Shown here one piece after another: positions 30,590-45,252 of a stretch of DNA of 64,000 nucleotides. This DNA comes from Salegentibacter sediminis (GTDB lineage Bacteria > Bacteroidota > Bacteroidia > Flavobacteriales > Flavobacteriaceae). Both the position numbers and the translations under genes were made by a program. Numbering within the stretch: the first letter of the stretch is position 1; each line of letters begins with the position of its first letter. Where the stretch lies: assembly GCF_002078605.1 (NCBI RefSeq), contig NZ_MSJR01000001.1, forward strand, positions 620,001 through 684,000. The letters are read 5' to 3'. The notes under the pieces were generated by a model, which was not told the DNA's origin, searched no databases, and worked only from the letters and a program-made list of their open reading frames with translations.

Positions 30590-31281
30590 TGCAGCAGTTT
30601 TTTCAGCTTCCGGTATTTGGGGTTTTTATAACATTAATCGCATATTTCCTTGCGGTAAAACTGAGGAAAAAGTGGAATTATGTATTGTTAAATCCGGTGT
30701 TGATCGCTATTGCAGGAATAATTGGTTTCCTGCTAATCTTCCGAATTGACTTTGAAACTTACAATGTGGGGGGAAAATACGTTAGTTTCTTTCTGGGACC
30801 ATCTGTGGTAGCCTTAGGAGTGTTTTTTTATGAGAAGTATGAAGAGGTAAAGCAGAATTTAAAGATATTTATTCTGGCGGTACTCGCCGGAGGGATTACC
30901 GGGGTGCTTAGCGTTATCGGTTTTCTTTTATTACTGAAAGCTCCTGAAGTGATCACCAGGTCTCTTGCAGCAAAATCGGTGACCACCCCAATTGCGATCG
31001 AAATAACCAGGCTTTTGAATGGAATCCCGGAAATAACTGCGGGAATCGTCATTGCAGTAGGAATATTTGGCAATGCCTTCGGGCCATTTATTCTGAAAAA
31101 ATCAGGGATTAAAAGCAAAATCGCCATCGGCACAGCCCTAGGTACCGCCGCCCACGGAATTGGAACCGCAAGAGCTTTTGAAGAAGGAAAACTTCAAGGG
31201 GTTTACAGTGGCATGGCGATGTGCCTTAATGGAATTATTACCGCTTTAATAACCCCTTACCTTATAGAATTAATTTTCTGA
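30586..31281 (+). CDS. lrgB: LrgB/CidB-family membrane protein
   Basis: A 231-residue protein with about seven membrane helices and the conserved LLKAPEVITRSLAAKSVTTPIA and GTALGTAAHGIGTARAFEEG motifs. It is the partner of LrgA in a holin-like or metabolite transport complex of the inner membrane. It overlaps the LrgA gene by 4 bp (ATGA) and its last 12 bases overlap the end of the convergent antiporter gene. Confidence 0.92.
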   Translation: MMQQFFQLPVFGVFITLIAYFLAVKLRKKWNYVLLNPVLIAIAGIIGFLLIFRIDFETYNVGGKYVSFFLGPSVVALGVFFYEKYEEVKQNLKIFILAVLAGGITGVLSVIGFLLLLKAPEVITRSLAAKSVTTPIAIEITRLLNGIPEITAGIVIAVGIFGNAFGPFILKKSGIKSKIAIGTALGTAAHGIGTARAFEEGKLQGVYSGMAMCLNGIITALITPYLIELIF

Positions 31282-32559
31282 TTCCTTTGTGATTTCGTTT
31301 TCTTCTTCATCTACAACATCATTTCCAAACCTGTCTTTTTTGAAATAGCTTATAATAGATGGAGCGGTGAAGCCGTGAATAACTATTGAAATTAGGATAA
31401 TATACGCCGTGATAGAATGCAGCTCATTCCTATTATCAAAACCTTCAAATTGTACCAATGCCCAGGAAAGATAAAAGACCGAACCAATTCCTTTTATTCC
31501 CAGGAAACTTATTGCCAGTTTGCTTTTAAAAGACTCCTTTATACCAATAAGTCCAATTAAGCCGGCAAGGGGGCGTATGATCAAAACAAATACAAAAGCA
31601 AATAATATCCCTTTCCAGTCGGTTAATTCCAGCATTCCGTTCATGAGCGAGCCTCCAAATAAAATGATCCATACCACCAGTAATAAGCGTTCGATTTCGT
31701 GCACAAAATCATGCATTTTCCTCTTAAAATCTCCACTTATTTTTTCATAGTACCTTAAACTAAGTCCGGCAAAGAATACGGCCAGAAAGCCATAACCATG
31801 CAAAAGCTCTGTTATTCCGTAGCTAAAGATGGTGAGCGATAATGCCAGGAATCCATCAAAAGTTTTAATATTCGTCCACACATGGAGCCTGTCAAGAAGA
31901 AAACCTATAAACCTGCCTATGGCTATTCCGCAAATAACACCTATAATAATTTTTAATAGGAATTTATCCAAAAACCAGTCGCTGAAGTCAAACATAGCCC
32001 ATCCGCCGGCCTGGGCTACGAGCAGGGCCATATAGGTAAATGGAAAAGCCATCCCGTCGTTTAAACCTGCCTCAGCGGTTAAGGAAAATCTCACCCGCTC
32101 CCTGAACTTTTTTTCCCGTTTTGGGTCGTCTAACTGGGTCTCAGCCGCCAGCACCGGATCTGTTGGCGCCAGAACCGCGGCCAGTAGCAGAGAAGATGGA
32201 ACACTTAGCAATAAAAAATGATTACCCAGAAGATAAGCCGAGAGCATACAGAGAGGCATGGTGACAAAAACCAGTAAGAGGGGGCGTTTCCAGGTTTTAA
32301 GGCTATACTCGGTGCCAATCTTTAATCCTGCCCCCATTAAGGAGATGATCACGATCATTTCAGAAAAATACATCAGGTTACGATCATTCCATAAGGGATC
32401 TGGCCAACTCAATGGAATGTCGATGTAAAAAAGTAAAAAACCTATTAATAGTAATAGAATTGGGGAGCTTATTTTGATTTTCCGTGAAATAGAGGGGAGC
32501 CAGGCCATAACCAGGGTGGCTAGCCCTAATCCTGCAAGGATAAGGTAGTGGTCTTTCAT
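31270..32559 (-). CDS. Na+/H+ antiporter, CPA1 type
   Basis: A 429-residue integral membrane protein with 12-13 helices. The CPA1 signature is visible as ALTAEAGLNDGMAFPF-like (FSLTAEAGLNDG) and LAAVLAPTDPVLAA, in which the Asp residues carry ions. It exchanges cytosolic Na+ (or K+) for H+, fitting a marine organism. The hydrophilic C-terminal tail is short and acidic. It is convergent with lrgB (12-bp overlap) and divergent from the DUF6544-like gene. Confidence 0.9.
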   Translation of the reverse strand: MKDHYLILAGLGLATLVMAWLPSISRKIKISSPILLLLIGFLLFYIDIPLSWPDPLWNDRNLMYFSEMIVIISLMGAGLKIGTEYSLKTWKRPLLLVFVTMPLCMLSAYLLGNHFLLLSVPSSLLLAAVLAPTDPVLAAETQLDDPKREKKFRERVRFSLTAEAGLNDGMAFPFTYMALLVAQAGGWAMFDFSDWFLDKFLLKIIIGVICGIAIGRFIGFLLDRLHVWTNIKTFDGFLALSLTIFSYGITELLHGYGFLAVFFAGLSLRYYEKISGDFKRKMHDFVHEIERLLLVVWIILFGGSLMNGMLELTDWKGILFAFVFVLIIRPLAGLIGLIGIKESFKSKLAISFLGIKGIGSVFYLSWALVQFEGFDNRNELHSITAYIILISIVIHGFTAPSIISYFKKDRFGNDVVDEEENEITKESEN

Positions 32560-32677: not shown

Positions 32678-32720
32678 TGATTTTCATCATTTTTCAACCA
32701 ATTATATTCCGGTAAATTTA
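32678..32720 (+). promoter_or_regulatory. Crp/Fnr-type site A with -7 element, before the DUF6544-like gene
   Basis: Dyad TGAT-TTTC-ATCA at 32678-32689, then TAAATTTA (32713-32720) as -7 element. The dyad centre is 29.5 bp from the first T of the -7 element, so it would sit near -41.5. There is no -33 TTTG, as expected for an activator-dependent promoter. Predicted start is near 32725. Confidence 0.65.
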
Positions 32721-32740
32721 TAATCTGTAATCCCTGAAAA

Positions 32741-33847
32741 ATGAAAATTCTTGTTGGTTTAATTTTTCTTATTCACGCCCTCATTCATCTGTTGGGTTTT
32801 CTCAAGGCATTCCGTCTGGCTGAATTACGACAACTTCCCTTGGAAATCTCCAGGCCCCTGGGATATTTATGGTTGTTTTGTGCACTTCTTTTTTTGTTTG
32901 TGCTATACTTATTTCTTCAGGGTAAATCCTGGTGGCCGTTTTTTGCCATTGCGGCTATAATAATTTCTCAAAGTCTTATTATTCTAGTTTGGCAAGACGC
33001 CAAATATGGTAGTATTCTTAACCTTATTATTTTACTTATAAGTCTTCCAGCCATGGGGAGTTTTTATTTTCAGAAAAAGACAGAAAAAGAAGTGACCCGC
33101 TTAGTCCAATTGGCTACAACTTCAACAGAGGCCACCGTAGAACTGGAAGACAGAGCTCAACTCCCCGAAATAATCTGGAAATGGTTAAGAATTTCAGGAG
33201 TAAATGCTAAATCGGAAGTTGCTTTTGTTCGGCTTCGGCAGCAGGGTAGAATGAAGATTAAACCCGATGGGGATTGGATGCCCTTTCGGGCTAAGCAATA
33301 TTTTAATGTGAAAGCACAGTCTTTCCTCTGGACCACCCGTGTTAATACTGGTTCTCCCATTTATTTTGATGGCCGGGATAAGCTAATGAACGGGCAGGGA
33401 GCAATGCTTATTAAGTTGTTTTCGCTGTTTCCCCTCGTAAATGAATATGATAATGATAAAATAGATGCCGGAGCTATGCAGCGCTTTCTCGCCGAGATCT
33501 GTTGGTTTCCCACAGCCGCCTTAAGCAGGCAAATTAGCTGGGAGGCCATGGATGGTAATGCTGCCCGGGCAGAATTAGAAATAAATGGAAAGAAAGTGTC
33601 AGGGATTTTCAATTTTTCTGAAGAAGGAAAGTTGCTTTCTTTTCAAACCAAACGCTTTTACGGTGGAAAACAGGATTCCAGGGAAGAAACATGGAAAGTT
33701 GAAATGCTTGGTTTTAAAGAATTTTCCGGGTATGAAATTCCTAATAAATGCCGAATTACCTGGAAACTGCCAGAAGGGGATTTTACCTGGCTGGAGCTGG
33801 AAATAGTGGAAGTAGATTATAATAAGGCTGAGTTATACCCAAATTAA
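32741..33847 (+). CDS. DUF6544-like membrane protein
   Basis: A 368-residue protein. About four N-terminal membrane helices (residues 1-110, starting MKILVGLIFLIHALIHLLGF) are followed by a soluble domain of about 230 residues. That domain has RLRQQGRMKIKPDGDWMPFRAKQ, WTTRVNTGSPIYFDG, GAMQRFLAEICWFP and a C-terminal EIPNKCRITW. The pattern agrees with DUF6544 (formerly DUF6920), widespread and of unknown function; family naming is from memory. It stands first in the 32.6-45.3 kb group, with its own Crp/Fnr-type site. Confidence 0.75.
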   Translation: MKILVGLIFLIHALIHLLGFLKAFRLAELRQLPLEISRPLGYLWLFCALLFLFVLYLFLQGKSWWPFFAIAAIIISQSLIILVWQDAKYGSILNLIILLISLPAMGSFYFQKKTEKEVTRLVQLATTSTEATVELEDRAQLPEIIWKWLRISGVNAKSEVAFVRLRQQGRMKIKPDGDWMPFRAKQYFNVKAQSFLWTTRVNTGSPIYFDGRDKLMNGQGAMLIKLFSLFPLVNEYDNDKIDAGAMQRFLAEICWFPTAALSRQISWEAMDGNAARAELEINGKKVSGIFNFSEEGKLLSFQTKRFYGGKQDSREETWKVEMLGFKEFSGYEIPNKCRITWKLPEGDFTWLELEIVEVDYNKAELYPN

Positions 33848-33859
33848 GCCATTCTGTAC

Positions 33860-33902
33860 TGACAAATGTCATATTAATTCTGGCTTATTACTGGTAAATT
33901 TG
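33860..33902 (+). promoter_or_regulatory. Crp/Fnr-type site B with -7 element, before the 4-TM protein, ppsA and ATPase genes
   Basis: Dyad TGAC-AAAT-GTCA (33860-33871) and a perfect -7 element TAAATTTG (33895-33902). Centre to -7 start is 29.5 bp, as at the other five sites. Predicted start is near 33907, 20 bp before the ATG. Confidence 0.7.
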
Positions 33903-33926
33903 GGTTAAACCAATGCGTTTTAGGTT

Positions 33927-34313
33927 ATGGAACCATCTGTCTTTCTTGCCAAATTTTGGGGCTGGTATCTGCTCATTTTTTTCTTTATCCTTAGTTTCAA
34001 TCCACGAAGGATCAGACAAATTTTTGACGATCTCAAAGATCAAAAGTTTCTGATTCTGGCCGCCTTTGCAGCGATTATTTTAGGACTTTTAAATATTCTT
34101 TTCCATAATATCTGGGAGCCTGATTGGCGCATTATTATTACAGCGCTGGGTTGGATATCCCTTTTTATTGGCCTCGGACTTTTTGTTTTTCCCGATTCTA
34201 CAACCCGCCGGCTAACCACCCTTAACATAAGGTTTGTGCAGGTAATTTATATTATTCTTTTCCTTTTGGGCATATTTCTGTTGAACATGGGCTATCAACT
34301 GGTATTATATTAA
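33927..34313 (+). CDS. Four-helix membrane protein of unknown function
   Basis: A 128-residue protein with four predicted membrane helices (about 10-25, 40-60, 70-92, 103-127) and very short loops. I do not recognise a family. It is the first gene of a probable operon: its stop lies 11 bp before ppsA, which is followed by a P-type ATPase gene. Expression is likely driven by the Crp/Fnr-type site upstream. A role supporting the ATPase or membrane energetics is possible but not shown. Confidence 0.7.
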   Translation: MEPSVFLAKFWGWYLLIFFFILSFNPRRIRQIFDDLKDQKFLILAAFAAIILGLLNILFHNIWEPDWRIIITALGWISLFIGLGLFVFPDSTTRRLTTLNIRFVQVIYIILFLLGIFLLNMGYQLVLY

Positions 34314-34324
34314 AATCCTTAACT

Positions 34325-36697
34325 ATGATGGAGTTTATAAAGAAATTCAGCAACTTATCTCTGGACGATCTTCCACAGGTAGGAGGTAAAAATGCCTCCC
34401 TGGGCGAAATGTTTAATGAGCTTTCTTCTGAAGGCGTTTTGGTACCCGATGGTTTTGCGACAACCTCAGACGCTTTTTGGTCTTTTCTGAAGGAGAATAA
34501 CCTGGACCAAAAACTAAAAGATCTCATCAAGACTCTCGATAAAGATCATTTTGAGAACCTCCCCGAAATTGGAGCTGAAGCGAGAAAGATCATAAAATCT
34601 TCTGAGTTTTCCGACGCATTTGCCAATGAAATCAGGCAAGCCTATAAAGAACTGGGCGAAACGCTTAATATTCCGGTAGCAGTAAGAAGCAGCGCCACAG
34701 CCGAAGATCTTCCTGATGCTAGTTTTGCAGGCCAGCACGATACATTTTTAAATGTTACCGGCGAAGAAGCCCTTTTAAAGGCCGTTAAAAATTGTTTTGC
34801 CTCCCTCTATACAGATCGTGCTATAAAATACCGCGAAGATCACGGTTTTGTACATCACGATATTGCACTATCGGTGGGGGTTCAAAAAATGGTGCGATCA
34901 GATACAGGCTGCTCTGGGATTGGCTTCAGCCTGGAACCCGAATCGGGTTTTCGAAATCTCATTCATTTATCGGGAGTATGGGGCTTAGGAGAAACTATAG
35001 TGCAGGGGCTGGTGAATCCAGATGAATTTGATGTTTTTAAACCCACCCTTAAAAAAGATAAAAATCCCATCGTTCAGAAAAAGCTGGGCAGAAAAGAGCT
35101 CACCATGGTTTATTCTGAATCCAACGGGCATTCCTCTACCGTGACTATGGATACCACTGTTGAAAAACAGGATTCCTACGTTCTAAGCGATGAGGAGGTA
35201 ATCCAGCTTTCTAAGTGGATTCTGGTGATCGAAGATCATTATTCCCGTCCTATGGATGTCGAATGGGCAAAGGATGGTGAAACCGGGCAACTATATATTA
35301 CCCAGGCCCGCCCCGAAACTGTACATAGAGAGAAAGAGGGTAGATATCATTTGGAGTACCATCTTACTGAGCATTCTGAAATGCTGGTAAGCGGGAATGC
35401 CATAGGATCCAGTATCGCTACGGGGATTGCACGCTACCTTAAATCTCCAACTGAAGCACATAAATTAAAACCCGGGGATATTCTGGTAACTTCAACCACC
35501 AGCCCAGACTGGGACCCGCTACTTAAAAGATCGGCAGCAGTAATTACAGACCGGGGAGGTCGCACCAGCCACGCAGCTATTGTAGCCCGGGAGTTAGGTG
35601 TGCCTGCAGTAGTAGGAACCAATAATGCTACAGAAATCATTAAGGACGGCCAGGAAATAACTGTTTCCTGTGAAGGCAAAATCGGTTTTGTTTATAAGGG
35701 AAAACTGAAATTCGAAAAGAAGGAAATAGATTTTGGTAAAATAAATCTGCCTAATACAGAGGTTAAACTAATCCTTTCCGATCCCGCCAGGGCTTTTCAA
35801 CTTTCTTTTTATCCCAATAACGGAATAGGCCTGCTACGCATGGAATTTATAATTACTCATCTAATTAAGGTACACCCAATGGCCCTGGTGAAGTTTGACC
35901 AGATAAGCGATTCCAAAACAAAAAAAACCATTGAAGATCTCACCTGGCAATACAAAGATAAGAAAGACTACTTTGTAGAGGAATTATCGCGTGGGCTCGC
36001 AGTTATGGCAGCGGCTTTTTATCCTAAAGAGGTGATCGTTAGAATGAGTGATTTCAAAAGTAACGAATATGCAAATCTCATAGGCGGAAAACAGTTTGAA
36101 CCGGAGGAAGAAAACCCGATGCTGGGCTTCCGGGGAGCAGCACGTTATTACCATCCTTTTTATAAAGACGGGTTTGAATTAGAGTGTAAAGCTATTAAAA
36201 GGCTAAGGGACGAAATGGGCCTCACCAATGTAAAGGTGATGATTCCGTTTTGCCGAACCCTGGAGGAAGGTAAAAACGTGGTTGGACTGATGAAAAATTT
36301 CGGACTGGTTCAGGGAGAGAACGGTCTCGAGATCTATATGATGGTAGAAATTCCTTCTAATGTGATTCTGGCAGAAGAGTTTGCTGAAATTTTCGACGGT
36401 TTCTCGATTGGCTCAAACGACCTTACCCAACTTACTCTTGGGGTAGACAGGGATTCAGAGGTAATGGCCGGGGTTTTTGATGAAAATGATGCGGCAGCCA
36501 GGGAGATGATCGCCACAGCTATAAAGAAAGCCAATAAGGCTGGTGTGAAAATAGGACTCTGTGGGCAGGCGCCAAGCGATTTCCCTGAATATGCAGCATT
36601 CCTCGTAAAAGAAGGCATAAATAGTATTTCTTTTAATCCCGATGCGCTGCTGAAAGGTATTGAAAACATCAATAAAGCCGAAGGAGACCGAGGTTAA
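34325..36697 (+). CDS. ppsA: Phosphoenolpyruvate synthase
   Basis: A 790-residue enzyme that makes PEP from pyruvate, ATP and water for gluconeogenesis. The N-terminal ATP-grasp part starts VGGKNASLGEM and contains VAVRSSATAEDLPDASFAGQHDTFLN. The swivelling phosphohistidine domain has TDRGGRTSHAAIVARELGVPAV with His416. The C-terminal PEP/pyruvate barrel has IGSNDLTQL and the active-site Cys746 in GLCGQAPSD. Its position under a Crp/Fnr-type promoter, next to an ion-pumping ATPase, suggests use when energy or carbon flow changes rather than as a housekeeping gene. Confidence 0.95.
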   Translation: MMEFIKKFSNLSLDDLPQVGGKNASLGEMFNELSSEGVLVPDGFATTSDAFWSFLKENNLDQKLKDLIKTLDKDHFENLPEIGAEARKIIKSSEFSDAFANEIRQAYKELGETLNIPVAVRSSATAEDLPDASFAGQHDTFLNVTGEEALLKAVKNCFASLYTDRAIKYREDHGFVHHDIALSVGVQKMVRSDTGCSGIGFSLEPESGFRNLIHLSGVWGLGETIVQGLVNPDEFDVFKPTLKKDKNPIVQKKLGRKELTMVYSESNGHSSTVTMDTTVEKQDSYVLSDEEVIQLSKWILVIEDHYSRPMDVEWAKDGETGQLYITQARPETVHREKEGRYHLEYHLTEHSEMLVSGNAIGSSIATGIARYLKSPTEAHKLKPGDILVTSTTSPDWDPLLKRSAAVITDRGGRTSHAAIVARELGVPAVVGTNNATEIIKDGQEITVSCEGKIGFVYKGKLKFEKKEIDFGKINLPNTEVKLILSDPARAFQLSFYPNNGIGLLRMEFIITHLIKVHPMALVKFDQISDSKTKKTIEDLTWQYKDKKDYFVEELSRGLAVMAAAFYPKEVIVRMSDFKSNEYANLIGGKQFEPEEENPMLGFRGAARYYHPFYKDGFELECKAIKRLRDEMGLTNVKVMIPFCRTLEEGKNVVGLMKNFGLVQGENGLEIYMMVEIPSNVILAEEFAEIFDGFSIGSNDLTQLTLGVDRDSEVMAGVFDENDAAAREMIATAIKKANKAGVKIGLCGQAPSDFPEYAAFLVKEGINSISFNPDALLKGIENINKAEGDRG

Positions 36698-36722
36698 ATA
36701 TTTTTAATCAAACGCAGGTATA

Positions 36723-39356
36723 ATGCCCAAACAACCCCATGCGAGAGCGTACCAGGAAATTCTTTCTGAATTTTCTGTAGATCCTGAAAAAGGCCTTTCT
36801 GCAGCTGAAGCACAGAAACGCCTGAAACAATACGGGCAAAATAAATTACGTGATGCCAGAACCAAAAACATCTGGTTAATTCTCTTTGAACAATTCCTCG
36901 ATCCTATAATTTATATTCTTGCGGGAGCAATGGTACTGGCCTTTGCATTTAGCGAGTGGCTGGAGGGATTTGCCGTGTTAATTGTGATTCTTATAACGGC
37001 ACTCATCGGGTTTTTTATGGAGTGGCAGGCGATAAGATCGGTAGAGGCCCTGCAAAAAATGGTACAAACCGTGGCCACGGTACTTAGAGACTCCAGGACT
37101 GAAAAGATAAAGGCTAAGTCATTGGTGCCCGGCGATATTATTGAATTGGAGGCGGGAGACGTTATTCCTGGCGATGCCCGGGTGTTGGGATCCCGGAGTT
37201 TTGCAGTAAAAGAAGCCGTTCTCACCGGGGAAAGTAACCAAATTGAAAAAATTGAGGAGAAACTCCCTGAAGACACTCCGCTTGCAGACCGTAGAAATAT
37301 GCTTTACAAGGGCACTATTGCCGCCAGGGGTAAAGCCAAAGCGATAATCGTAGCCACGGGCACCAAAACCGAAATCGGAAGGATTAGTGAGCTCACCCAC
37401 GAAGCTAAGAAAGAAACAACTCCGCTGGAAAAAAAGCTCAAAAAACTTAGTTATTGGTTGATTTGGCTAACCCTTGGTCTCGCTTTATTAATTGTAATAA
37501 CCGGATTTTTCCAGGGTAAAGACCTCACCTTAATGATAAAAACCGGGATCGCCCTGGCTGTAGCTGCCATTCCAGAAGGTCTTCCTATTGTGGCAACTAT
37601 AGCACTGGCCAGGGGAATGTTGAGGCTCTCCCGGCGGAATGTAGTGATTAAAAAACTGGAAGCTGTACAAACTCTTGGAGAAACAGGAATCATCTGCACC
37701 GATAAAACCGGCACGCTTACCGAAAATAAAATGAGTATCCACTATATGGTGCTTTCTTCGGGAGATTATCCTGTTGAAGAAATAAATGCAAAAAGCTTTA
37801 AAGACGAGAAAGCCTTTCAAAAAATTATCGAAGTTGCTGCGCTTTGTAACGATAGCAGCCTTCGTGATGGAAAACAAAAAGGGGATGCGGTAGAAATCGC
37901 ACTTGTTGAATTTCTTGCGGAGCAGGGCTTCAATTATCAGGAAATGCGGGAAAGATATTCCAGAATAGCTGAAATTCCCTTCGATGCAGAGATCAAGAAA
38001 ATGGCCACCCTCCATACCTATGAAGAACATTATCTCATCACTGTAAAAGGGGCCCTGGAAGCCTTACTCCCGGATTGTGATTTTATTTTAACCCCAGATG
38101 GAAAAGAGGATTTCACCGATAAGGATTTTTGGTTAAAAAAAGCTGCTGAGATCGCTGCCGAAGGGATTAGGGTGTTGGCTTTTGCTTACCGGGAATCTCA
38201 GGAAAAACCAGAAAATGAACAACTCTTGAAGAATTTGGTTTTTGTGGGGGTTCTTGGTTTTCTGGATCCGCCGCGAAAAGATATTAAACAGGCGATAGAA
38301 ACCTATAAAAATGCGGGGATTAGGGTGGTGATGATCACAGGGGATCATCCCGATACTGCGCGGAAGATAGGGGAGGAAATAGGTTTAATCGAAAAAGATG
38401 CTCCTGTAACCAATGTGATTTTGGGGCGGGAACTGGAAGAATTTGAAACCTTTTCTCCCGAAAAGAAAGAAACCGTCATGGAAGCCGGGATATTTGCCAG
38501 GATGGTCCCAAAACAAAAACTTGATCTGGTGGAATTTTATCAGAAAAATAAAGCGATAGTGGGGATGCTTGGAGATGGAGTTAATGACGCTCCCGCTCTC
38601 AAAAAAGCAGATATTGGAATAGCGATGGGTATTCGGGGAACAGAGGCTGCCAAGGAAGTAGCCGATGTGATCCTGATGGACGATAAATTTACCTCGACCG
38701 AACTGGCTATCCGGCAGGGGCGAACCATCTTTGAAAATATCAGGCAATTTGTGGTCTTTTTGCTTTCCTGTAATCTTGCAGAGATAATTTCTGTGGCACT
38801 GGCATCCTTCAGCAACTTGCCTTTACCGCTATTACCCCTGCAAATTCTGTTTTTAAACCTGGTGACAGACGTGTTCCCAGCCCTGGCCCTGGGCGTAGGT
38901 AAGGGTGATCCACAGGTCATGAAGCAGCCTCCCCGCGATCCGCAGGAACCCATTCTCACCCGCAAATTGTGGACCTCTACTGTCTTGTATGGCCTTAGTA
39001 TTACTGCAGCAGTAATAGGAATTGTGGTCTATGCTCATTTGGGCAAAGGCTATCCTGCCCTTGAGGTTAATAATATCGCCTTTTATACCCTGGTCTTAGC
39101 ACAATTGCTAAATGTTTTTAATCTGCCCCGCCGAAAAACTTCCTTCCTCCTAAATGAGGTGACGAAAAATCCCTGGGTTTGGGTTGCGCTGGTGTTTTCA
39201 ATTGCTATAATGGTGTTAGTCTATTTTATTCCTATTATGCAGGAGGCCCTATCCCTGGTAGCTTTAAATGAAGAGCAATTCCTGATAATTGCGGGCTTCG
39301 CCTTTGCTTCCCTGTTGTTATCACAGATTTTTAAAAAAACAGGCTTAACAAATTAA
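36723..39356 (+). CDS. P-type cation ATPase, P2A (Ca2+) type
   Basis: An 877-residue ion pump. It has the N-terminal cation ATPase domain, the actuator TGES loop (VLTGESNQIEK), the phosphorylated Asp327 in CTDKTGTL, KGA in the nucleotide domain (TVKGALEAL), and MLGDGVNDAPALKKADIGIAMG. About ten membrane helices are predicted. Helix 4 reads AAIPEGLPIV, like SERCA/PMCA-type Ca2+ pumps, so Ca2+ export is most likely. It follows ppsA by 25 bp in the same unit. Pumps of this class also occur in the mycobacterial dormancy regulon (ctpF), which fits the neighbourhood. Confidence 0.92.
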   Translation: MPKQPHARAYQEILSEFSVDPEKGLSAAEAQKRLKQYGQNKLRDARTKNIWLILFEQFLDPIIYILAGAMVLAFAFSEWLEGFAVLIVILITALIGFFMEWQAIRSVEALQKMVQTVATVLRDSRTEKIKAKSLVPGDIIELEAGDVIPGDARVLGSRSFAVKEAVLTGESNQIEKIEEKLPEDTPLADRRNMLYKGTIAARGKAKAIIVATGTKTEIGRISELTHEAKKETTPLEKKLKKLSYWLIWLTLGLALLIVITGFFQGKDLTLMIKTGIALAVAAIPEGLPIVATIALARGMLRLSRRNVVIKKLEAVQTLGETGIICTDKTGTLTENKMSIHYMVLSSGDYPVEEINAKSFKDEKAFQKIIEVAALCNDSSLRDGKQKGDAVEIALVEFLAEQGFNYQEMRERYSRIAEIPFDAEIKKMATLHTYEEHYLITVKGALEALLPDCDFILTPDGKEDFTDKDFWLKKAAEIAAEGIRVLAFAYRESQEKPENEQLLKNLVFVGVLGFLDPPRKDIKQAIETYKNAGIRVVMITGDHPDTARKIGEEIGLIEKDAPVTNVILGRELEEFETFSPEKKETVMEAGIFARMVPKQKLDLVEFYQKNKAIVGMLGDGVNDAPALKKADIGIAMGIRGTEAAKEVADVILMDDKFTSTELAIRQGRTIFENIRQFVVFLLSCNLAEIISVALASFSNLPLPLLPLQILFLNLVTDVFPALALGVGKGDPQVMKQPPRDPQEPILTRKLWTSTVLYGLSITAAVIGIVVYAHLGKGYPALEVNNIAFYTLVLAQLLNVFNLPRRKTSFLLNEVTKNPWVWVALVFSIAIMVLVYFIPIMQEALSLVALNEEQFLIIAGFAFASLLLSQIFKKTGLTN

Positions 39357-39359
39357 ACC

Positions 39360-40121
39360 TTATTTGATATACATTCCTCCATCAATTACCTGTTGGGTGC
39401 CGGTTATATATTTGCTTTCATCGCTGGCAAGAAAAAGAGCCAGTTGTCCTATTTCTTTTGATTCAGCATAGCGACCAAATGGAATTGAATTTTCAAAACC
39501 ACCCTTGACTTCTTCTGGATTATCCGGACCGAGTTGATCTTCTATAGACCGCATCATACGGTTGTCTACAGGACCGGGATGTATAGAATTTACCCTTATT
39601 TTTCTTTCAGCAAATTCCAGGGCAGCAGTGCGCATAATACCGATAACCCCATGTTTAGAAGCTACATAAGCCCCAAGCTTAGGAAAACCTTTTAATCCTG
39701 CAACCGAGCTGGTAATGATAACACTCCCTCCATCTTCCATCCTGGGAATAACATGTTGGCATCCCAGCCATACCCCTTTTAGGTTTACAGCTATAACCCG
39801 GTCAAAAACCTCTTCAGGATATTCTGCAATGGAACTGGTTTTACCTTCAATTCCGGCATTGCTGAAGAAAATATCTATCTTACTAAAATTATAAAGACAT
39901 TTTTCCAAATATTTCTTAGTGTCCCCGGCTTTAGATACATCGGCAGCGAACCATGCTACCTTGTCGCTTTTTAAGCTTTCTGCAGCCTTTTTAAGTTTCT
40001 CTTCCTCCAGGTCGGTTAAAAATACTTTAGCACCTTCTGCAAGGAACAACCTGGCTGTTTCCAATCCAATCCCACCGGCGCCCCCGGTGATTAATGCGAC
40101 TTTGTTTTCTAATCTTTTCAT
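39360..40121 (-). CDS. Short-chain dehydrogenase/reductase (SDR)
   Basis: A 253-residue classical SDR. The cofactor motif is TGGAGGIGLE, an acidic residue follows strand 2 (FLTDLEEE, favouring NAD), NAGIEG is present, the catalytic Ser is in TSSVAG, and the YVASK motif gives the Tyr and Lys. The C-terminal IDGGMYIK is typical. The substrate, an alcohol or carbonyl compound, is unknown. It lies 32 bp after the phosphoribosyltransferase gene on the same strand, so both should be driven by Crp/Fnr-type site C. It is convergent with the P-type ATPase gene (3 bp gap). Confidence 0.9.
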   Translation of the reverse strand: MKRLENKVALITGGAGGIGLETARLFLAEGAKVFLTDLEEEKLKKAAESLKSDKVAWFAADVSKAGDTKKYLEKCLYNFSKIDIFFSNAGIEGKTSSIAEYPEEVFDRVIAVNLKGVWLGCQHVIPRMEDGGSVIITSSVAGLKGFPKLGAYVASKHGVIGIMRTAALEFAERKIRVNSIHPGPVDNRMMRSIEDQLGPDNPEEVKGGFENSIPFGRYAESKEIGQLALFLASDESKYITGTQQVIDGGMYIK

Positions 40122-40153
40122 AGTTATTCGTGTTAGATTAATCCCTGAAAATT

Positions 40154-40798
40154 TTAACCCTTAGGCTTTCCGTATTCCCGGTTGGTTTCGTGCAGTATCT
40201 CTATAGCTTCTTTATCGCTTACCGCCCTGAAATCTTCATAAAACTGTCCTACTGCACTGAAATTGAAAGGAGTTTCAAGACAAATTACTTTGCTGATTTC
40301 GGGGGAGTTCTTTAATTTTTCAACAGAGGAAGGAGGCGCTACCGGGATGGCCACAATAATTTCCCGGGGCTTTTGTTTGTGCACCAACATGACCGTACTT
40401 AAAAGCGTATTCCCGGTAGCGATTCCGTCATCGGTTATAATTATGATTTTGTCCTTTAAATTAACCGGACTGGAATTTTTATGATATTCCCTGTCTCTTT
40501 TGCGAAGGAGCTCTCTTATTTTCTCTGTTTGTGTACTGATATATTCTTCTGAAAAATGTTCAGTAGGACTTAGTGTGATATCCTCCAAACTAACTGCACC
40601 TATAGCAAATTCTGAATTATAGGGATGGCCTATTTTCTTAGATAAGACTACATCCAGAGGGGCTTCCAGGCTTTTTGCAAGTATAGCTCCTATTGGGAGC
40701 CCGCCTCTGGGAATAGCCAACACAACAACTGGCTTTCCCTTGTAGTCTGCCAATTCCCGGCTTAATTGCTCTCCTGCATCTATCCTGTCTGTAAACAT
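40154..40798 (-). CDS. Phosphoribosyltransferase-family protein
   Basis: A 214-residue protein of the PRTase fold. It has VVLAIPRGGLPIG near the start (PPi loop) and the PRPP-binding IIITDDGIATGNTL. The loop AIGAVSLEDITL and a hood region differ from known purine or pyrimidine enzymes, so the acceptor is not identifiable. Related stand-alone PRTases of this kind occur in the mycobacterial DosR dormancy regulon and in Fnr/Anr-controlled clusters; that comparison is from family knowledge. It is divergent from the 146-residue helical protein, with two Crp/Fnr-type sites between them. Confidence 0.85.
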   Translation of the reverse strand: MFTDRIDAGEQLSRELADYKGKPVVVLAIPRGGLPIGAILAKSLEAPLDVVLSKKIGHPYNSEFAIGAVSLEDITLSPTEHFSEEYISTQTEKIRELLRKRDREYHKNSSPVNLKDKIIIITDDGIATGNTLLSTVMLVHKQKPREIIVAIPVAPPSSVEKLKNSPEISKVICLETPFNFSAVGQFYEDFRAVSDKEAIEILHETNREYGKPKG

Positions 40799-40814
40799 GG
40801 CTGAGGTTTTGATC

Positions 40815-40857
40815 TGAAGTTATTATAAAGTTACCTCCCCCCAAATGATAAAAATCA
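40815..40857 (-). promoter_or_regulatory. Crp/Fnr-type site C with -7 element, for the PRTase-SDR unit
   Basis: Dyad TGAT-AAAA-ATCA (40846-40857). On the minus strand TAACTTCA (40822 to 40815) is the -7 element, differing from TAnnTTTG in the last two bases. The centre is exactly 29.5 bp from its first base. Predicted start is near 40810, 12 bp before the ATG. Confidence 0.65.
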
Positions 40858-40871
40858 ATCTTGCGGCTGTA

Positions 40872-40914
40872 TGATTAAAATCATTATTTTTTATGACTGA
40901 AAGAGGTAATTTCA
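40872..40914 (+). promoter_or_regulatory. Crp/Fnr-type site D with -7 element, for the 146-residue protein gene
   Basis: Dyad TGAT-TAAA-ATCA (40872-40883), extended to ATGATT/AATCAT, and TAATTTCA (40907-40914) as -7 element at the same 29.5-bp distance. Predicted start is near 40919, 18 bp before the ATG. The centre is 26 bp from that of site C, about 2.5 helical turns. Confidence 0.65.
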
Positions 40915-40936
40915 GAAGGAAATAAATTCTTGCATT

Positions 40937-41377
40937 ATGGAAAATTTTAGAAAAAGGCCAAAAGGAGAATTCATGATTCAGGCCAACTGGGAACAGCTCT
41001 ATTTGCTTACCAAACACTGGGAATCTGATCTGAAATTTTTTAGGGATGATCTGAATTTTCTCAATAAACTTATCGATAAATATTTTATTTGGATAGACAG
41101 TGATGAGAGTATAAATGAAGTTTCCAGGATTAGATCTGAGCTTCAGGAAATTCGTTCCCGATGTGAAGATCTGCTTCATAAAACCCAAAAACACCGGGCC
41201 CAGTTAGGAGTAATGATGGAGAAGGAGAATGATGACTCCAGGATATTCCGCCTGGAACACGAACACCTTGAAGATGAGGTAACCGATTTCGTGAAATCCT
41301 TTAGAAATAACAGAAAAGAAATTTTTAAGATTACCGAATATCTTAAAGATACAGAGGACTTTTCAGGAATTAATTAA
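40937..41377 (+). CDS. Helical, charged protein of unknown function
   Basis: A 146-residue cytosolic protein with no signal peptide or membrane helix. It is predicted almost wholly alpha-helical, with heptad-like charged segments at about residues 50-85 and 95-140, and several Trp/Phe/Tyr in the first 50 residues. The look is of a small helical bundle or coiled-coil dimer. I recognise no family. It is monocistronic, ended by a strong hairpin, and divergent from the phosphoribosyltransferase under paired Crp/Fnr-type sites. That suggests a role in the same physiological response. Confidence 0.75.
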   Translation: MENFRKRPKGEFMIQANWEQLYLLTKHWESDLKFFRDDLNFLNKLIDKYFIWIDSDESINEVSRIRSELQEIRSRCEDLLHKTQKHRAQLGVMMEKENDDSRIFRLEHEHLEDEVTDFVKSFRNNRKEIFKITEYLKDTEDFSGIN

Positions 41378-41386
41378 ATCTAAAAC

Positions 41387-41423
41387 AAACAAAACATCCC
41401 ATATTTGGTGGGATGTTTTGTTT
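41387..41423. terminator. Bidirectional terminator between the helical protein and GT4 genes
   Basis: A perfect 15-bp stem (41387-41401 with 41409-41423; core CATCCCA/TGGGATG) and a 7-nt loop, A-rich before and T-rich after. It serves both convergent genes and overlaps the last two bases of the GT4 frame. Confidence 0.85.
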
Positions 41424-43713
41424 AACGAAACTCAGGTCTCGAAGCTTTTCTCACCCGTCTTCTTTTTTTTGTTCGTAACGCGTTAGCATGAGAAGACCCG
41501 TATTCAGAGCTTTCAGGATAGGATTCCATTATCAGCCTTGCCATTAGGTAACAAATGGTAGACTCGGCACCCTGATTTAAATTCACATTCTCTTTTTCGA
41601 GCCCATCTCCACAACCGCCTGTAACGGGGTTGTAGATAATGCGGTTAAGATGATTGTCTCCAAGAAACCAATTGAAAGCTTTTTCCATTTTTATTTTATA
41701 CTCCGGCTTTTTAAAATGCTGGTAAAAAATATCCAGGGCCTGGATAGTGTAGGCAACATCTATAGGTTGCTCTCCGTAAATTTCCGGTTTTGTATGTTTT
41801 TGGTGCCAACCTTTGTTAGAGATCACCCTAAATTTGCCGTTTTTGTACATTTTGGATAACAGGAATTCAAATGATTCCAGTGCAGTATTTTTATACACCT
41901 TCTTCCCAGTGGTTAAAAAAGCAAGCAACATGGCCTCGGGGAGGATACTGTTGGCATAGGTGAGGTATTCTTCAAACCATTCCCAGTCCTTTTCCCTGTT
42001 CAGATCGTACCTGCTTATTAGATTTTCGGCTAATTTTTCTATTGCTTTTTTAAATTCCTGGTCTTCAAAATTTTCCAGGTAAAGGAAAAGCCCCTTTATG
42101 GTAAAGGCTATGGACCGGGGTGATAGAACTCCTGGTATCCAGGACCGGGCTTTGTCCAAACAGCTTTTTGCTCTTTTAATGTATTCAGGAGGAAGATTAT
42201 GGACTTCACTAACCACCTGGCCAAGTGCCCAGATGGCTCTGGCATTGGAATCTTCCAGGTTTACATAATCGTTTTTAATATGAACCTGGTTATGTTCATC
42301 AATATAATTCACAAAATTGCCGGACCCGGTCTGGCATCTTTCAATAAAAGACAAATAGAGATCTATATAATCTAGATCTTCGCTGGTTCTGAAAATATTA
42401 TAATGCATCAGCATAACAATAAGTGCCCTGGCATTATCATCAAGGGTATATCCCGAATCCCGATCGGGAATGTTTATCTTGGAAAATTGAATCATTCCCA
42501 ATTCCGTGCTTAGTCTCTTAAGATGATCCAGCTTGATCTTTGGCCTTGAGAATTTAAGGGGCTCATTTTTATCCAGAACGTCCTGGTAGACCTTCGCATG
42601 TTGAATAGCGATATTGTCCCAAACACTGGAACTGGTTTTGGTGTAGGCCTGTACAGCCATAAATTTCCGAAGTTTTTTATCTGAAAGTAATTTTATGGCT
42701 GCTTCTGAAAGCTGCTTGTGATCACCAATTTTAATGAGGATTCCCAATTCATGGTTAAGGATTTCCCTGGTATGAGGATTGGTAGTGGCAATAATAGGGC
42801 AGGCACAACTCATTGCATAAGAAAAAGTGCCACTCACCGCCTGGTTAGGATCCTTGGAGGTAAACAGGTAAACATCTGTGGCCTGTAATAATTCGAGGAG
42901 CTGCTTTAACTCCAAATAAGAATCATAAAATTTTACATGAGCTGATAGTTCAAGCTGGTTTACCAGGCTTTTTAAAAACCTCCTGTAATCATCCCTGTTG
43001 TTTTTGATATTTCCGGGATGGGTTTTTCCAATTATGAGATATAAGACGTCCGGATGTTGTTTTATGATTTCAGGTAAGGCATATAAAGCCGTCTCAATGC
43101 TTTTTCCTGCTCCCAGTAAACCGAAAGTAGATAAGACCAACCTTCCTTTAAACCCATATTTCTCCTTGACCTCTTCGGGGGATTTCCATGCTACCATATG
43201 AGTGCCGTGCTGGATAAGCTCCAGGTCTTCTTCCCGAATATCATAAGCCTCCCTCAGAATCTTTACCGATTCCTGGGTCATAACAAAAATTACCTTTGAG
43301 AAGGCAGCTAGTTTCTGAACCACCGATTTTAATTCGGGGTTGGGGTTGGGAAGTACCGTATGAAAAGTCATCACAACCGGTTTATTTATCTTTTCTAAAA
43401 AATCAAACAGATAAGTGCCGTAATCTCCGCCAAAAAGCCCAAACTCGTGCTGTATATGAATCAGTTTAACTTCAGGATCCCTGTTAATTTCCTCTGCGAT
43501 ACGTACATACTCCTGTTTTTCCTCTGGATTGAAATGATAAGGAAAACCCGGTTTCTGATCTTTTACAATTTCCAGTTCTTTACACTCAAAACTTTTTCCG
43601 AATTTACGCTGAATAGATTGCATAGTATCGGTGGTATAGGTAGCTATTCCGCAGGTGGTGGGCGGAAAGGTGGACATAAAGAGGATTTTGGAAGTCTTAT
43701 TTAAATTTTTCAT
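41422..43713 (-). CDS. GT4-family glycosyltransferase with C-terminal helical domain
   Basis: A 763-residue protein of two halves. Residues 1-370 are a GT-B glycosyltransferase of family GT4: LFMSTFPPTTCGIATYT, IQHEFGLFGGDYG, a GLLGAGKSIETAL phosphate-binding segment, and an E-x7-E-like region near SCACPIIATTNPHTREIL. Residues 400-740 are helical repeats resembling an (alpha/alpha)6 barrel (DDNARALIVM, EYLTYANSILPEA, GEQPIDVAYTIQALD), unusual for a plain GT4. Donor and acceptor are unknown; the GH130 gene upstream (4-bp overlap) makes a mannose- or glucose-linked glycan plausible. The second domain could bind or process the product. Confidence 0.85.
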   Translation of the reverse strand: MKNLNKTSKILFMSTFPPTTCGIATYTTDTMQSIQRKFGKSFECKELEIVKDQKPGFPYHFNPEEKQEYVRIAEEINRDPEVKLIHIQHEFGLFGGDYGTYLFDFLEKINKPVVMTFHTVLPNPNPELKSVVQKLAAFSKVIFVMTQESVKILREAYDIREEDLELIQHGTHMVAWKSPEEVKEKYGFKGRLVLSTFGLLGAGKSIETALYALPEIIKQHPDVLYLIIGKTHPGNIKNNRDDYRRFLKSLVNQLELSAHVKFYDSYLELKQLLELLQATDVYLFTSKDPNQAVSGTFSYAMSCACPIIATTNPHTREILNHELGILIKIGDHKQLSEAAIKLLSDKKLRKFMAVQAYTKTSSSVWDNIAIQHAKVYQDVLDKNEPLKFSRPKIKLDHLKRLSTELGMIQFSKINIPDRDSGYTLDDNARALIVMLMHYNIFRTSEDLDYIDLYLSFIERCQTGSGNFVNYIDEHNQVHIKNDYVNLEDSNARAIWALGQVVSEVHNLPPEYIKRAKSCLDKARSWIPGVLSPRSIAFTIKGLFLYLENFEDQEFKKAIEKLAENLISRYDLNREKDWEWFEEYLTYANSILPEAMLLAFLTTGKKVYKNTALESFEFLLSKMYKNGKFRVISNKGWHQKHTKPEIYGEQPIDVAYTIQALDIFYQHFKKPEYKIKMEKAFNWFLGDNHLNRIIYNPVTGGCGDGLEKENVNLNQGAESTICYLMARLIMESYPESSEYGSSHANALRTKKRRRVRKASRPEFR

Positions 43714-44756
43714 TCTGATTCCTTTTTTAGTTCATTAAGCAAATTTTTTAATTTAACCGAAGCTACGGCAATACAATCGTCTCCCGCCCCATAGTAGATA
43801 TACAAATCCTCTCCGAAAACGGCCGTGCCGGTAGGGAATACCACATTGTCTACCACTCCCTTTTTTTCATATTCTTCGGTAGGAGAGAATAAGGGAGTTT
43901 TCAATTTGGAAATCAGTTTTCTGGGTTCTTGCAGGTCCAGTAATGCAGCCGAAGCGTGGTAAACCAATCCTTTCACGGTGGTCTCTACCGCGTGATATAT
44001 AAGAAGCCAGCCCTCTTCGGTTTCAATGGGGGGACAGCCGGCCCCAACGTGACTGCATTCATAATGGTACCGCGGGCGTAAAACAATATGTTCGCGCAAA
44101 TTCTTCACATAATCCCGCCAGAATGCCCGACTGAGATCTTCTTTCTCTTCAAAATAAAAGATTTGAATGGAAGGCCAAAGGCGATGAAGCACAGCAAATT
44201 TTCCATTTATTTTTTTCGGGAAGAACATCACATTTTTATCCCATACATAAATCTTTCCCTTCATTAATTCGTTGAGCTTATACCGCACGAAAAGTTCGTA
44301 GAAGAGCAGGTGTTTTTCACTTATTTTTTCGAAGTTTTCTCTGATGAGCTCTGAATATTCTTCATAGTTAAAGACAGGAGTAAGAATGCCCTGGCGGGTG
44401 AAATTTTTCAGATCTTTAGAGGTGGCATAAGCGCCAAAAACATTGATGCCGTCAAAGGCCGAATAAGTAAGATAATAGGTGTCTTCAATTTTGGCGATTC
44501 TGGGATCCTCTGTCCCCTGGAATTCATAGGTTTCTGTGGGGAAAAATATGGGGGAGGTGTTTCTTTTGACAACCTCCAGTGGACCCTCCAACCGGCAATA
44601 GCCCAAACTCGAATAGTTGCCAATGCGCACAGCCCGGTAGAAGATATGCACGGTGTCATCCTCTTTTATTACTGCAGGATTAAAAACCCCTTCATTTTCA
44701 AAATTGTGTGGGGTCTTCTCCAGTATCACTCCGTGTTTTTTTACTTCCAGCGGCAT
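43710..44756 (-). CDS. GH130-family glycoside phosphorylase or hydrolase
   Basis: A 348-residue cytosolic five-bladed beta-propeller of family GH130. Characteristic parts are NEGVFNPAVIKEDDTVHIFYRA, QGTEDPRIAKIEDTYYLTYSAFDG with the Asp of the EDPR motif, and GAGCPPIETEEGWLLIYHA. Many GH130 enzymes phosphorolyse beta-1,2- or beta-1,4-mannosides, releasing mannose-1-phosphate, so energy would be conserved. Exact linkage cannot be told. The gene is followed by the GT4 gene with a 4-bp overlap, so synthesis and phosphorolysis of one glycan could be paired. It has its own Crp/Fnr-type site upstream. Confidence 0.88.
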   Translation of the reverse strand: MPLEVKKHGVILEKTPHNFENEGVFNPAVIKEDDTVHIFYRAVRIGNYSSLGYCRLEGPLEVVKRNTSPIFFPTETYEFQGTEDPRIAKIEDTYYLTYSAFDGINVFGAYATSKDLKNFTRQGILTPVFNYEEYSELIRENFEKISEKHLLFYELFVRYKLNELMKGKIYVWDKNVMFFPKKINGKFAVLHRLWPSIQIFYFEEKEDLSRAFWRDYVKNLREHIVLRPRYHYECSHVGAGCPPIETEEGWLLIYHAVETTVKGLVYHASAALLDLQEPRKLISKLKTPLFSPTEEYEKKGVVDNVVFPTGTAVFGEDLYIYYGAGDDCIAVASVKLKNLLNELKKESE

Positions 44757-44777
44757 TATGAGGTGAATTATTAAAGG

Positions 44778-44820
44778 TAAAAATGAATAAAAAGAACCTT
44801 TAAAGCTATGATATTTATCA
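44778..44820 (-). promoter_or_regulatory. Crp/Fnr-type site E, for the GH130-GT4 unit
   Basis: Dyad TGAT-ATTT-ATCA (44809-44820). At the standard 29.5-bp offset on the minus strand lies CATTTTTA (44785 to 44778), a weak -7 element matching TAnnTTTG at four of its six fixed bases. Predicted start is near 44773. Confidence 0.55.
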
Positions 44821-44887
44821 AGTTAAAGATTTGTGCGGGCAATAATCTTTTGTTAAAAATGCCTTGTTGATTAAAGTGAATTTTAGC

Positions 44888-44930
44888 TGATGCCGGTCAT
44901 ATTAATTTTAGGGAGTTCGATGTAAATTAG
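44888..44930 (+). promoter_or_regulatory. Crp/Fnr-type site F with -7 element, for the HPF-like gene
   Basis: Dyad TGAT-GCCG-GTCA (44888-44899) and TAAATTAG (44923-44930), one base from TAnnTTTG, at the same 29.5-bp distance. Predicted start is near 44935, 18 bp before the ATG. Confidence 0.6.
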
Positions 44931-44952: not shown

Positions 44953-45252
44953 ATGCATATCAATATACAGTTTGTGAAGATCAAAAACAGCGAAGCTTTA
45001 GCTGAATTTATCAACCAACAACTCGAAAAATTACAGAATAAGTATGAATGGCTTATCCGGGCTGAGGTTTTCATCAAATGGGAAAGTCAGGCAATTGGAA
45101 GGGATAAGATCTGCGAAATAGAACTCAGTGCTCCGGGGCCAAGAATTTATGCTGAAGCCAGGGCAGAGAATTTTGAATTAGCCGTGAAAAATACTGTTGC
45201 AGAACTTGAACAACAACTTAAAAAGCGAAAAGCAGTTTTTCAGAATTATTAA
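44953..45252 (+). CDS. Ribosome hibernation-promoting factor, short HPF/RaiA family
   Basis: A 99-residue protein with the beta-alpha-beta-beta-beta-alpha pattern of HPF/YfiA proteins (MHINIQFVKIKNSEALAEFINQQLEKL, then strands, then a basic C-terminal helix ELEQQLKKRK). These proteins sit in the 30S decoding channel and inactivate ribosomes when growth stops. The length is that of the short form without the dimerising tail. Sequence divergence from classical HPF is considerable, so the call rests on overall pattern. It is monocistronic, with a Crp/Fnr-type promoter and a strong terminator. Confidence 0.8.
   Translation: MHINIQFVKIKNSEALAEFINQQLEKLQNKYEWLIRAEVFIKWESQAIGRDKICEIELSAPGPRIYAEARAENFELAVKNTVAELEQQLKKRKAVFQNY

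Follow-up and report, generated by a model that had tools for sequence, protein, structure and literature searches.

What could join a ribosome hibernation factor, a phosphoenolpyruvate (PEP) synthase-like enzyme, a P-type cation ATPase and several other genes of no evident relation within a short stretch of a Bacteroidota genome? The question is raised by a window of 64,000 nucleotides of Salegentibacter sediminis (RefSeq assembly GCF_002078605.1, contig NZ_MSJR01000001.1, positions 620,001 to 684,000 of the forward strand), in which these genes are preceded by six dyads of the form TGAY-N4-RTCA. The initial annotation had seen in them a local Crp/Fnr-type regulon of six promoters that would respond to low oxygen or energy. 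The regulon is not local, since the six promoters are one cluster among about 41 candidate sites in the genome. We consider it probable that these sites make up a low-oxygen Crp/Fnr-type regulon with class II sites, read by a fusion of a receiver domain with a Crp/Fnr protein (REC-Crp) under the control of a FixL-like kinase.

A search with the pattern TGAYNNNNRTCA returned seven matches in the window, namely the six dyads and one at 32346-32357 that lies within a predicted open reading frame (ORF, 31270-32559) and is not intergenic. The six are all intergenic and spread over four intervals, and a T comes next after the dyad, toward its own gene, in 6/6; the initial annotation was right on these points and in finding no dyad in the other intergenic intervals. 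By count alone the enrichment is mild: shuffled versions of the window held 3.13 matches on average, and 3 of 100 reached the seven observed; genome-wide, when spacing is ignored, there are 187 dyads against 100 for the reversed pattern. The observed dyads are a strong signal because of their fixed spacing, not because of their number. In five of the six, the distance from the dyad centre down to TAnnTT is exactly 29.5 bp. On the forward strand, these are the promoters of the DUF6544 gene (dyad TGATTTTCATCA, 32678..32689; -7 box TAAATTTA, 32713..32720), of the unit formed by a small gene read initially as encoding four transmembrane segments (4-TM), a ppsA-like gene and the ATPase gene (dyad TGACAAATGTCA, 33860..33871; perfect box TAAATTTG, 33895..33902), of the gene for a 146-aa protein (dyad TGATTAAAATCA, 40872..40883; box TAATTTCA, 40907..40914) and of the gene for the hibernation promoting factor HPF (dyad TGATGCCGGTCA, 44888..44899; box TAAATTAG, 44923..44930); on the reverse strand, it is that of the phosphoribosyltransferase (PRTase) unit (dyad TGATTTTTATCA read toward the PRTase gene, 40846..40857; box TAACTTCA, 40815..40822). 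These five dyads were identified by pattern match, and those of the DUF6544 gene, the 4-TM unit and HPF are also backed by conservation. The sixth, ahead of the GH130-GT4 unit on the reverse strand (dyad TGATAAATATCA in the GH130-ward reading, 44809..44820), has a poor box with 4/6 letters (CATTTTTA, 44778..44785).

The spacing was evaluated on contig C1 with all its 45 dyads, taken irrespective of spacing and in both directions. TANNTT stood at 29.5 bp in 10 of the 90 readings, whereas at 61 other distances it occurred 1.03 times on average and never in more than 4; when the window's own dyads are set aside, 5 of 76 readings have it, compared with an average of 0.80 and at most 4 at other distances. 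The genome-wide search proposed in the initial annotation, run as dyad, N23 and TANNTT, found 41 sites against 2 for the reversed-pattern control, and the five exact sites within 12.25 kb of the window compare with 0.15 expected (scan-corrected value about 2e-4). The class II position of a Crp/Fnr activator corresponds to a dyad centre near -41.5. The sigma-A box TAnnTTTG of Flavobacterium psychrophilum spans -12 to -5 according to PMC9723704, and a spacing of 29.5 bp from such a box therefore places the dyad centre at -41.5. By their distance from the box, the six dyads occupy the class II position of predicted Crp/Fnr-activated promoters.

The comparison of the same promoters in related genomes, also proposed initially, showed conservation for several of them. 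For HPF, 34 relatives were searched, 30 homologue loci were taken and 29 were aligned; a promoter was called conserved when it had the exact dyad and at least 5 of the 6 box letters at 29.5 bp. This was the case in 16/29 (15/18 at a protein identity of at least 46%), the rest being three with one dyad mismatch and 10 with no site or a weak one. Dyad and box are kept in 7 of 9 orthologous promoters of the 4-TM/ppsA/ATPase unit, and in the two others the 4-TM gene sits behind a universal stress protein (USP) gene that carries the site. The DUF6544 search returned 13 loci, two partial ones of which were left out, and the promoter is kept in 4 of the 11 examined, own genome included, with the dyad at the same place in relatives G007, G001 and G051, the last from another family. 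PRTase homologues occur in 3/34 genomes; G001 keeps the dyads with a 4/6 box, and in G021 a site (L185) lies ahead of the gene preceding the PRTase gene. For GH130, 4 of 20 returned loci were examined, while the rest matched more weakly (40% identity or less); the dyad is kept in our genome and two sisters, always with a 4/6 box, and a fourth locus (51% identity) has none. The GH130-GT4 promoter is thus the weakest member of the group, and of the six promoters initially claimed five stand with an exact box, while this one has a poor box. In other genera, islands were found where genes of the window type occur together with REC-Crp, USP and HSP20 genes and many sites; two islands (L195 in G045 and L188 in G025) are very dense, with many USP genes and at least 10 site readings in 20 kb.

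The 41 sites against 2 in the control lead us to reject a purely local regulon. Around 380-393 kb of contig C12 the sites form a second dense cluster; next to it (L038:120-5491) lie genes for a CheB/CheR-PAS-histidine kinase of 1049 aa and a phytochrome-type kinase of 738 aa. Targets were taken as the nearest downstream genes in the site stretches examined and annotated by Pfam; one site (L003) was left unannotated. Among them are FixS and CcoNO of the cbb3 oxidase, a HemN-like radical SAM protein, a ferredoxin-domain protein with pyruvate:ferredoxin oxidoreductase (PFOR), a second oxoacid oxidoreductase and a TPP/POR enzyme, complex I subunits, NadA with an FAD-binding partner, a PdxH-like protein and MlaE. 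Others are hemerythrin, several USPs, HSP20 and a beta-CASP protein in a row of USP genes. Genes for cbb3 oxidase, HemN-like proteins and ferredoxin oxidoreductases belong to the classic targets of low-oxygen control. A further site (G000:C20, L047:11862-15138) precedes genes for a cytochrome c, a fasciclin protein and a nos_propeller (NosZ-like) protein, in that order, which suggests that nitrous oxide reduction may fall within the regulon. Some of the 41 sites are expected by chance; one (L056) is inside a predicted gene, and others lie ahead of genes with no obvious low-oxygen role, such as those of a TonB receptor (L055) and a FadL-like protein (L049). The genome-wide spacing, the targets outside the window and the conservation of orthologous promoters give good support to reading these sites as a Crp/Fnr-type regulon of low-oxygen character with class II positions, in line with the initial proposal.

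Which protein would read these sites? The initial annotation had a Crp/Fnr regulator in mind. The motif is of the Crp/Fnr type, but the best candidate that we found is a REC-Crp protein with a FixL-like kinase rather than a plain Crp/Fnr regulator. Six proteins of our genome match HTH_Crp_2 of Pfam, and two of them (L037, L039) are fusions of receiver, cNMP_binding and HTH_Crp_2 domains. An N-terminal CxxC was found in none of the six, nor in the REC-Crp proteins of G009, G003, G021 and G041. The phospho-accepting Asp and the Lys of the receiver, and the Glu and Arg of the helix-turn-helix, are kept in 29/29 aligned REC-Crp rows (28 distinct). Of the 27 REC-Crp loci, own included, 25 have exact sites (49 in total and none in the control, over 109 kb), commonly directly 3' of the REC-Crp gene; the plain Crp/Fnr relatives have them in 11 of their 30 loci (13 against 0, over 105 kb). 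No NCBIfam model scored above its cut-off for REC-Crp or for the kinase among the best 25 of 108 and the best 25 of 87 matches, respectively; the FixK model (Caulobacter) reached 69.7 bits on REC-Crp against a cut-off of 300.

When the genomes of named species were scanned for REC-Crp, 80 loci were returned, of which the 50 with a listed match over both parts were used and 30 partial ones were dropped. The genera named include Salinimicrobium, Maribacter, Lutibacter, Winogradskyella, Mucilaginibacter, Hymenobacter, Dyadobacter, Pedobacter and Chitinophaga, among others. These 50 loci hold 64 exact sites against 3 in the control over 585 kb, most of them in loci that bear the name of a Flavobacteriaceae genus. 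Ten loci whose match covered the receiver only served as a rough control; they gave 4 sites, all in L253, and none in the other nine. It should be noted that L253 is a Eudoraea locus, with four exact sites even though its listed match covers only the receiver.

The kinase was a second element to consider. In 14 of 18 loci examined a same-strand histidine kinase gene lies directly 5' of REC-Crp; a 15th locus (L193) has a kinase by alignment, and the three without one are of the L037 type. In our genome the kinase gene (L039:2311-3543) is directly 5' of one of the REC-Crp genes, and its product has PAS, HisKA and HATPase domains. The PAS domain alone has its best matches among PDB sequences in FixL (2e-18) and DosP, with the heme-ligand His and the distal Arg aligned at what we take to be H200 (proximal) and R220 of FixL. 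A His aligned with the heme position in 12 of 14 kinases; L184 has it, by eye, in its first PAS domain, and L187 has none. It was invariant in 16 kinases chosen from 20 ORFs. Among the 50 named loci, a PAS domain with this His was found in 42, some at only 26-30% identity, and a kinase core on any strand within 4.5 kb in 49; 29 of the dropped partial-match loci gave two PAS matches, neither with the His. A predicted structure of the kinase (pLDDT 78.9, pTM 0.43) retrieved mostly generic kinases among the best 50 rows of a Foldseek search against the PDB, and the heme pocket was beyond its reach. Heme binding by the kinase, phosphotransfer to REC-Crp, DNA binding by REC-Crp and induction at low oxygen are what we infer from these features.

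Over 80 genomes, own included, 1346 sites were counted against 215 in the control; the counts are raw, ignore relatedness and score REC-Crp presence from full-length rows among the matches listed. The 26 genomes of our family with a full-length REC-Crp have 769 sites against 60, the 23 genomes of the family without it, counting the incomplete genome G007, have 353 against 80, and 31 genomes from outside the family total 224 against 75. Within the family, the genomes with and without REC-Crp still differ when our own genus is removed (Mann-Whitney p about 3e-4, relatedness again ignored).

Several of these results count against REC-Crp and its kinase as the reading system. The 353 sites in the 23 REC-Crp-less genomes rule out REC-Crp presence as the full explanation of site richness; several of these genomes are still site-rich (G017, G019, G020, G022, G023, G031 and G046), and REC-Crp is therefore not the sole reader. 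One of our two REC-Crp genes (L037) has no kinase alongside. The distal Arg is present in our kinase, in 10 of the 14 kinases and in 27 of the 42 His-bearing loci, and is missing elsewhere. In the Sphingobacteriaceae and Cytophagales REC-Crp loci the exact motif is often absent, and only 28 of the 50 named loci have one. The PRTase homologues of G021 and G042 show no site within 350 bp upstream. As for the Sphingobacteriaceae, six loci (L218, L224, L229, L244, L245 and L252) have REC-Crp and a PAS kinase, and the exact motif is absent from them; the operator or the promoter spacing may differ in this group.

The strongest alternative keeps the same low-oxygen regulon and assigns the reading to another Crp/Fnr-family protein, which we judge rather unlikely. 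One candidate is the plain Crp protein L051 (233 aa; G000:C1:762.6k), whose gene is itself a target, with an exact site 5' of it, and whose ETVNR helix places Glu and Arg as in Fnr-like readers; related plain Crp/Fnr loci also have sites nearby (the 11/30 given above). This protein lacks the N-terminal cysteine cluster, though, and a close orthologue was listed among the 80 genomes only in G001 (88%, with one internal stop) and G042 (44%), whereas genomes of the same genus without it retain sites and conserved promoters. With so narrow a distribution L051 is unlikely as the sole regulator, and the density of sites also favours the REC-Crp loci. A second candidate is a Crp type of about 200 aa with a VETVIR helix, present in our genome and in 4 of 5 others listed (G009, G003, G021 and G041). 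In these four genomes, Glu-x3-Arg helices above the Pfam cut-off occur only in REC-Crp and in this type, and no protein above that cut-off pairs an N-terminal CxxC with such a helix; three proteins (L287, L292 and L293) have the CxxC and a RAVVNR helix. In our genome the gene for a ~200-aa Crp protein (L047:5027-5623) is divergent from a GH97 gene with the motif in the promoter (4861). The third possibility is a reader missed by a census made with Pfam HTH_Crp_2 only. G041 encodes a 346-aa open frame (L298) with a below-cut-off Crp helix-turn-helix and a Fnr-like ESLSR helix, which makes it a further Crp/Fnr candidate and shows that the census is incomplete. The L051 site, the VETVIR type, the limits of the census and L298 all weaken the case for REC-Crp.

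G022 has no REC-Crp and 28 sites against 3 in the control; its candidate reader is a Fnr-type protein with CxxC, whose TESAIR helix is close to the TESFIR/SETLIR of REC-Crp. The CxxC is found in 26 of the 30 best plain Crp/Fnr loci, and some genomes carry both kinds of protein. It seems that REC-Crp and a cysteine-cluster Fnr can both read one operator. We lean slightly toward a broader proposal for the Bacteroidota, in which a relay from a FixL-like heme kinase to a receiver-Crp/Fnr protein would run a survival programme like that of DosR, and in which the same operators, within one family, would be served by this relay in some genomes and by a cysteine-cluster Fnr in others.

A different alternative is that the same Crp/Fnr-type regulon is triggered independently of oxygen, by energy charge, carbon starvation or another PAS ligand. 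Many targets are indeed general stress proteins (USPs, HSP20, HPF), and 2 of the 14 kinases have no aligned heme-position His, although in L184 another PAS domain had been aligned. Against this idea speak the cbb3 oxidase, HemN-like and ferredoxin oxidoreductase targets, a kinase PAS domain closest to FixL and DosP, and a CxxC Fnr-type protein of similar helix in many relatives; moreover, according to PMC9723704, the cbb3 oxidase of F. psychrophilum is up under oxygen limitation. We regard an oxygen-independent trigger as quite improbable. That the dyads are chance palindromes of AT-rich intergenic DNA, as their modest number alone (7 against 3.1 in the window, 187 against 100 in the genome) might suggest, is scarcely credible and was rejected given the fixed 29.5-bp spacing and the retention of dyads at the orthologous promoters of diverged relatives; it may still hold for the GH130 site only.

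Taking REC-Crp as the regulator, a tentative mechanism can be outlined. Low oxygen would free the FixL-type heme kinase, which would phosphorylate REC-Crp, and the activated protein would bind TGAY-N4-RTCA at -41.5 and recruit sigma-A polymerase to TAnnTTTG promoters. In the window, the expected output would be an increase in HPF, for ribosome storage and hibernation, in the PpsA-like enzyme, supplying PEP from pyruvate, and in the cation ATPase, together with the stand-alone PRTase, the short-chain dehydrogenase/reductase (SDR), the DUF6544 protein, the 146-aa protein and, less surely, the GH130-GT4 pair for glycan turnover. The targets outside the window would serve high-affinity respiration and stress survival.

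The genes of the window, with their Pfam assignments, are the following. On the forward strand, the DUF6544 protein (368 aa, 32741..33847; PF20181, 5e-72) is followed by a 128-aa protein (33927..34313), the 4-TM protein of the initial annotation, by the PEP synthase-like protein (790 aa, 34325..36697; PPDK_N and PEP-utilizers domains) and by the P-type cation ATPase (877 aa, 36723..39356; Cation_ATPase_N and _C domains). The SDR (253 aa, 39360..40121) and the PRTase-domain protein (214 aa, 40154..40798; PF00156, 1e-20) are on the reverse strand. Then come the 146-aa protein (40937..41377, forward; Pfam match sub-threshold only), the GT4-type glycosyltransferase (763 aa, 41422..43713) and the GH130 phosphorylase-like protein (348 aa, 43710..44756; PF04041, 2e-51), both on the reverse strand, and HPF (HPF/YfiA family, 99 aa, 44953..45252, forward; PF02482, with TIGR00741 above cut-off). 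Neither the 128-aa nor the 146-aa protein has a Pfam match above cut-off or an NCBIfam match. Homologues of both recur behind such sites in several genera, and the two are good candidates for new hypoxia proteins.

Three known systems invite comparison. In the FixL-FixJ-FixK cascade of alphaproteobacteria, FixJ is a receiver domain with a LuxR-type output and FixK a stand-alone Crp/Fnr protein without an Fe-S cluster. The system described here resembles that cascade in a FixL-close PAS kinase with the heme-ligand His position, in a receiver protein, in a Crp/Fnr output without N-terminal CxxC and in cbb3 and hemN-type targets. It differs in that the receiver is fused to cNMP_binding and HTH_Crp_2 domains instead of a LuxR-type output, so that the Crp part does not stand alone and FixJ and FixK appear merged, with one transcriptional step fewer; it also belongs to the Bacteroidota and lies next to TAnnTTTG promoters. 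The operator core is similar to the FnrN/FixK consensus TTGANCNNGATCAANG, as given in PMC4999443, but the dyad here prefers T after RTCA rather than A.

With Fnr and Anr, of Escherichia coli and Pseudomonas, the likeness lies in the site, since Fnr also uses a class II position near -41.5 and a TGAT-N4-ATCA core. Anr controls the cation P-type ATPase gene PA1429, hemN and USP genes of P. aeruginosa. PMC8575079 links these genes to anaerobiosis. The difference lies in the protein, as the six Crp/Fnr proteins of our genome have no N-terminal CxxC, unlike the 26/30 plain loci of relatives.

The parallel with the mycobacterial DosR regulon, drawn in the initial annotation, became stronger because the targets extend to HSP20, several USPs and a ferredoxin-domain protein. 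The DosR regulon includes PRTase and HPF-like members, and DosR itself is a LuxR/NarL-type regulator. HspX, the CtpF ATPase and USP are among the hypoxia-induced genes of the DosS-DosR two-component system in PMC8044303, comparable to the HSP20, P-type ATPase and USP targets found here. Only the target list is alike, given that our candidate regulator has a Crp output; since DosR is not of the Crp/Fnr family, the shared gene list would be convergent.

With the terms that we used, the open-access PMC literature gave no title or abstract opening on this regulon or on a Bacteroidota REC-Crp regulator, and neither "Crp" nor "Fnr" occurs in the main text of PMC9723704. The combination of sensor kinase and REC-Crp looks little described. 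The Bacteroidota are a major marine and soil phylum whose low-oxygen regulation seems little described in the open literature searched, and the present analysis yields for them a defined operator, a rule for the promoters (TAnnTT at 29.5 bp downstream of the dyad centre) and a list of targets, along with a proposed relay of two proteins in which the FixLJ and FixK steps would be merged. A further point of interest is a gene content convergent with that of the dormancy regulon of mycobacteria, here under a regulator of unrelated type. Finally, this may be a case of sensor replacement over fixed binding sites: if REC-Crp and the cysteine-cluster Fnr do read the same operators, the family would present a natural swap of oxygen sensors over a conserved promoter network.

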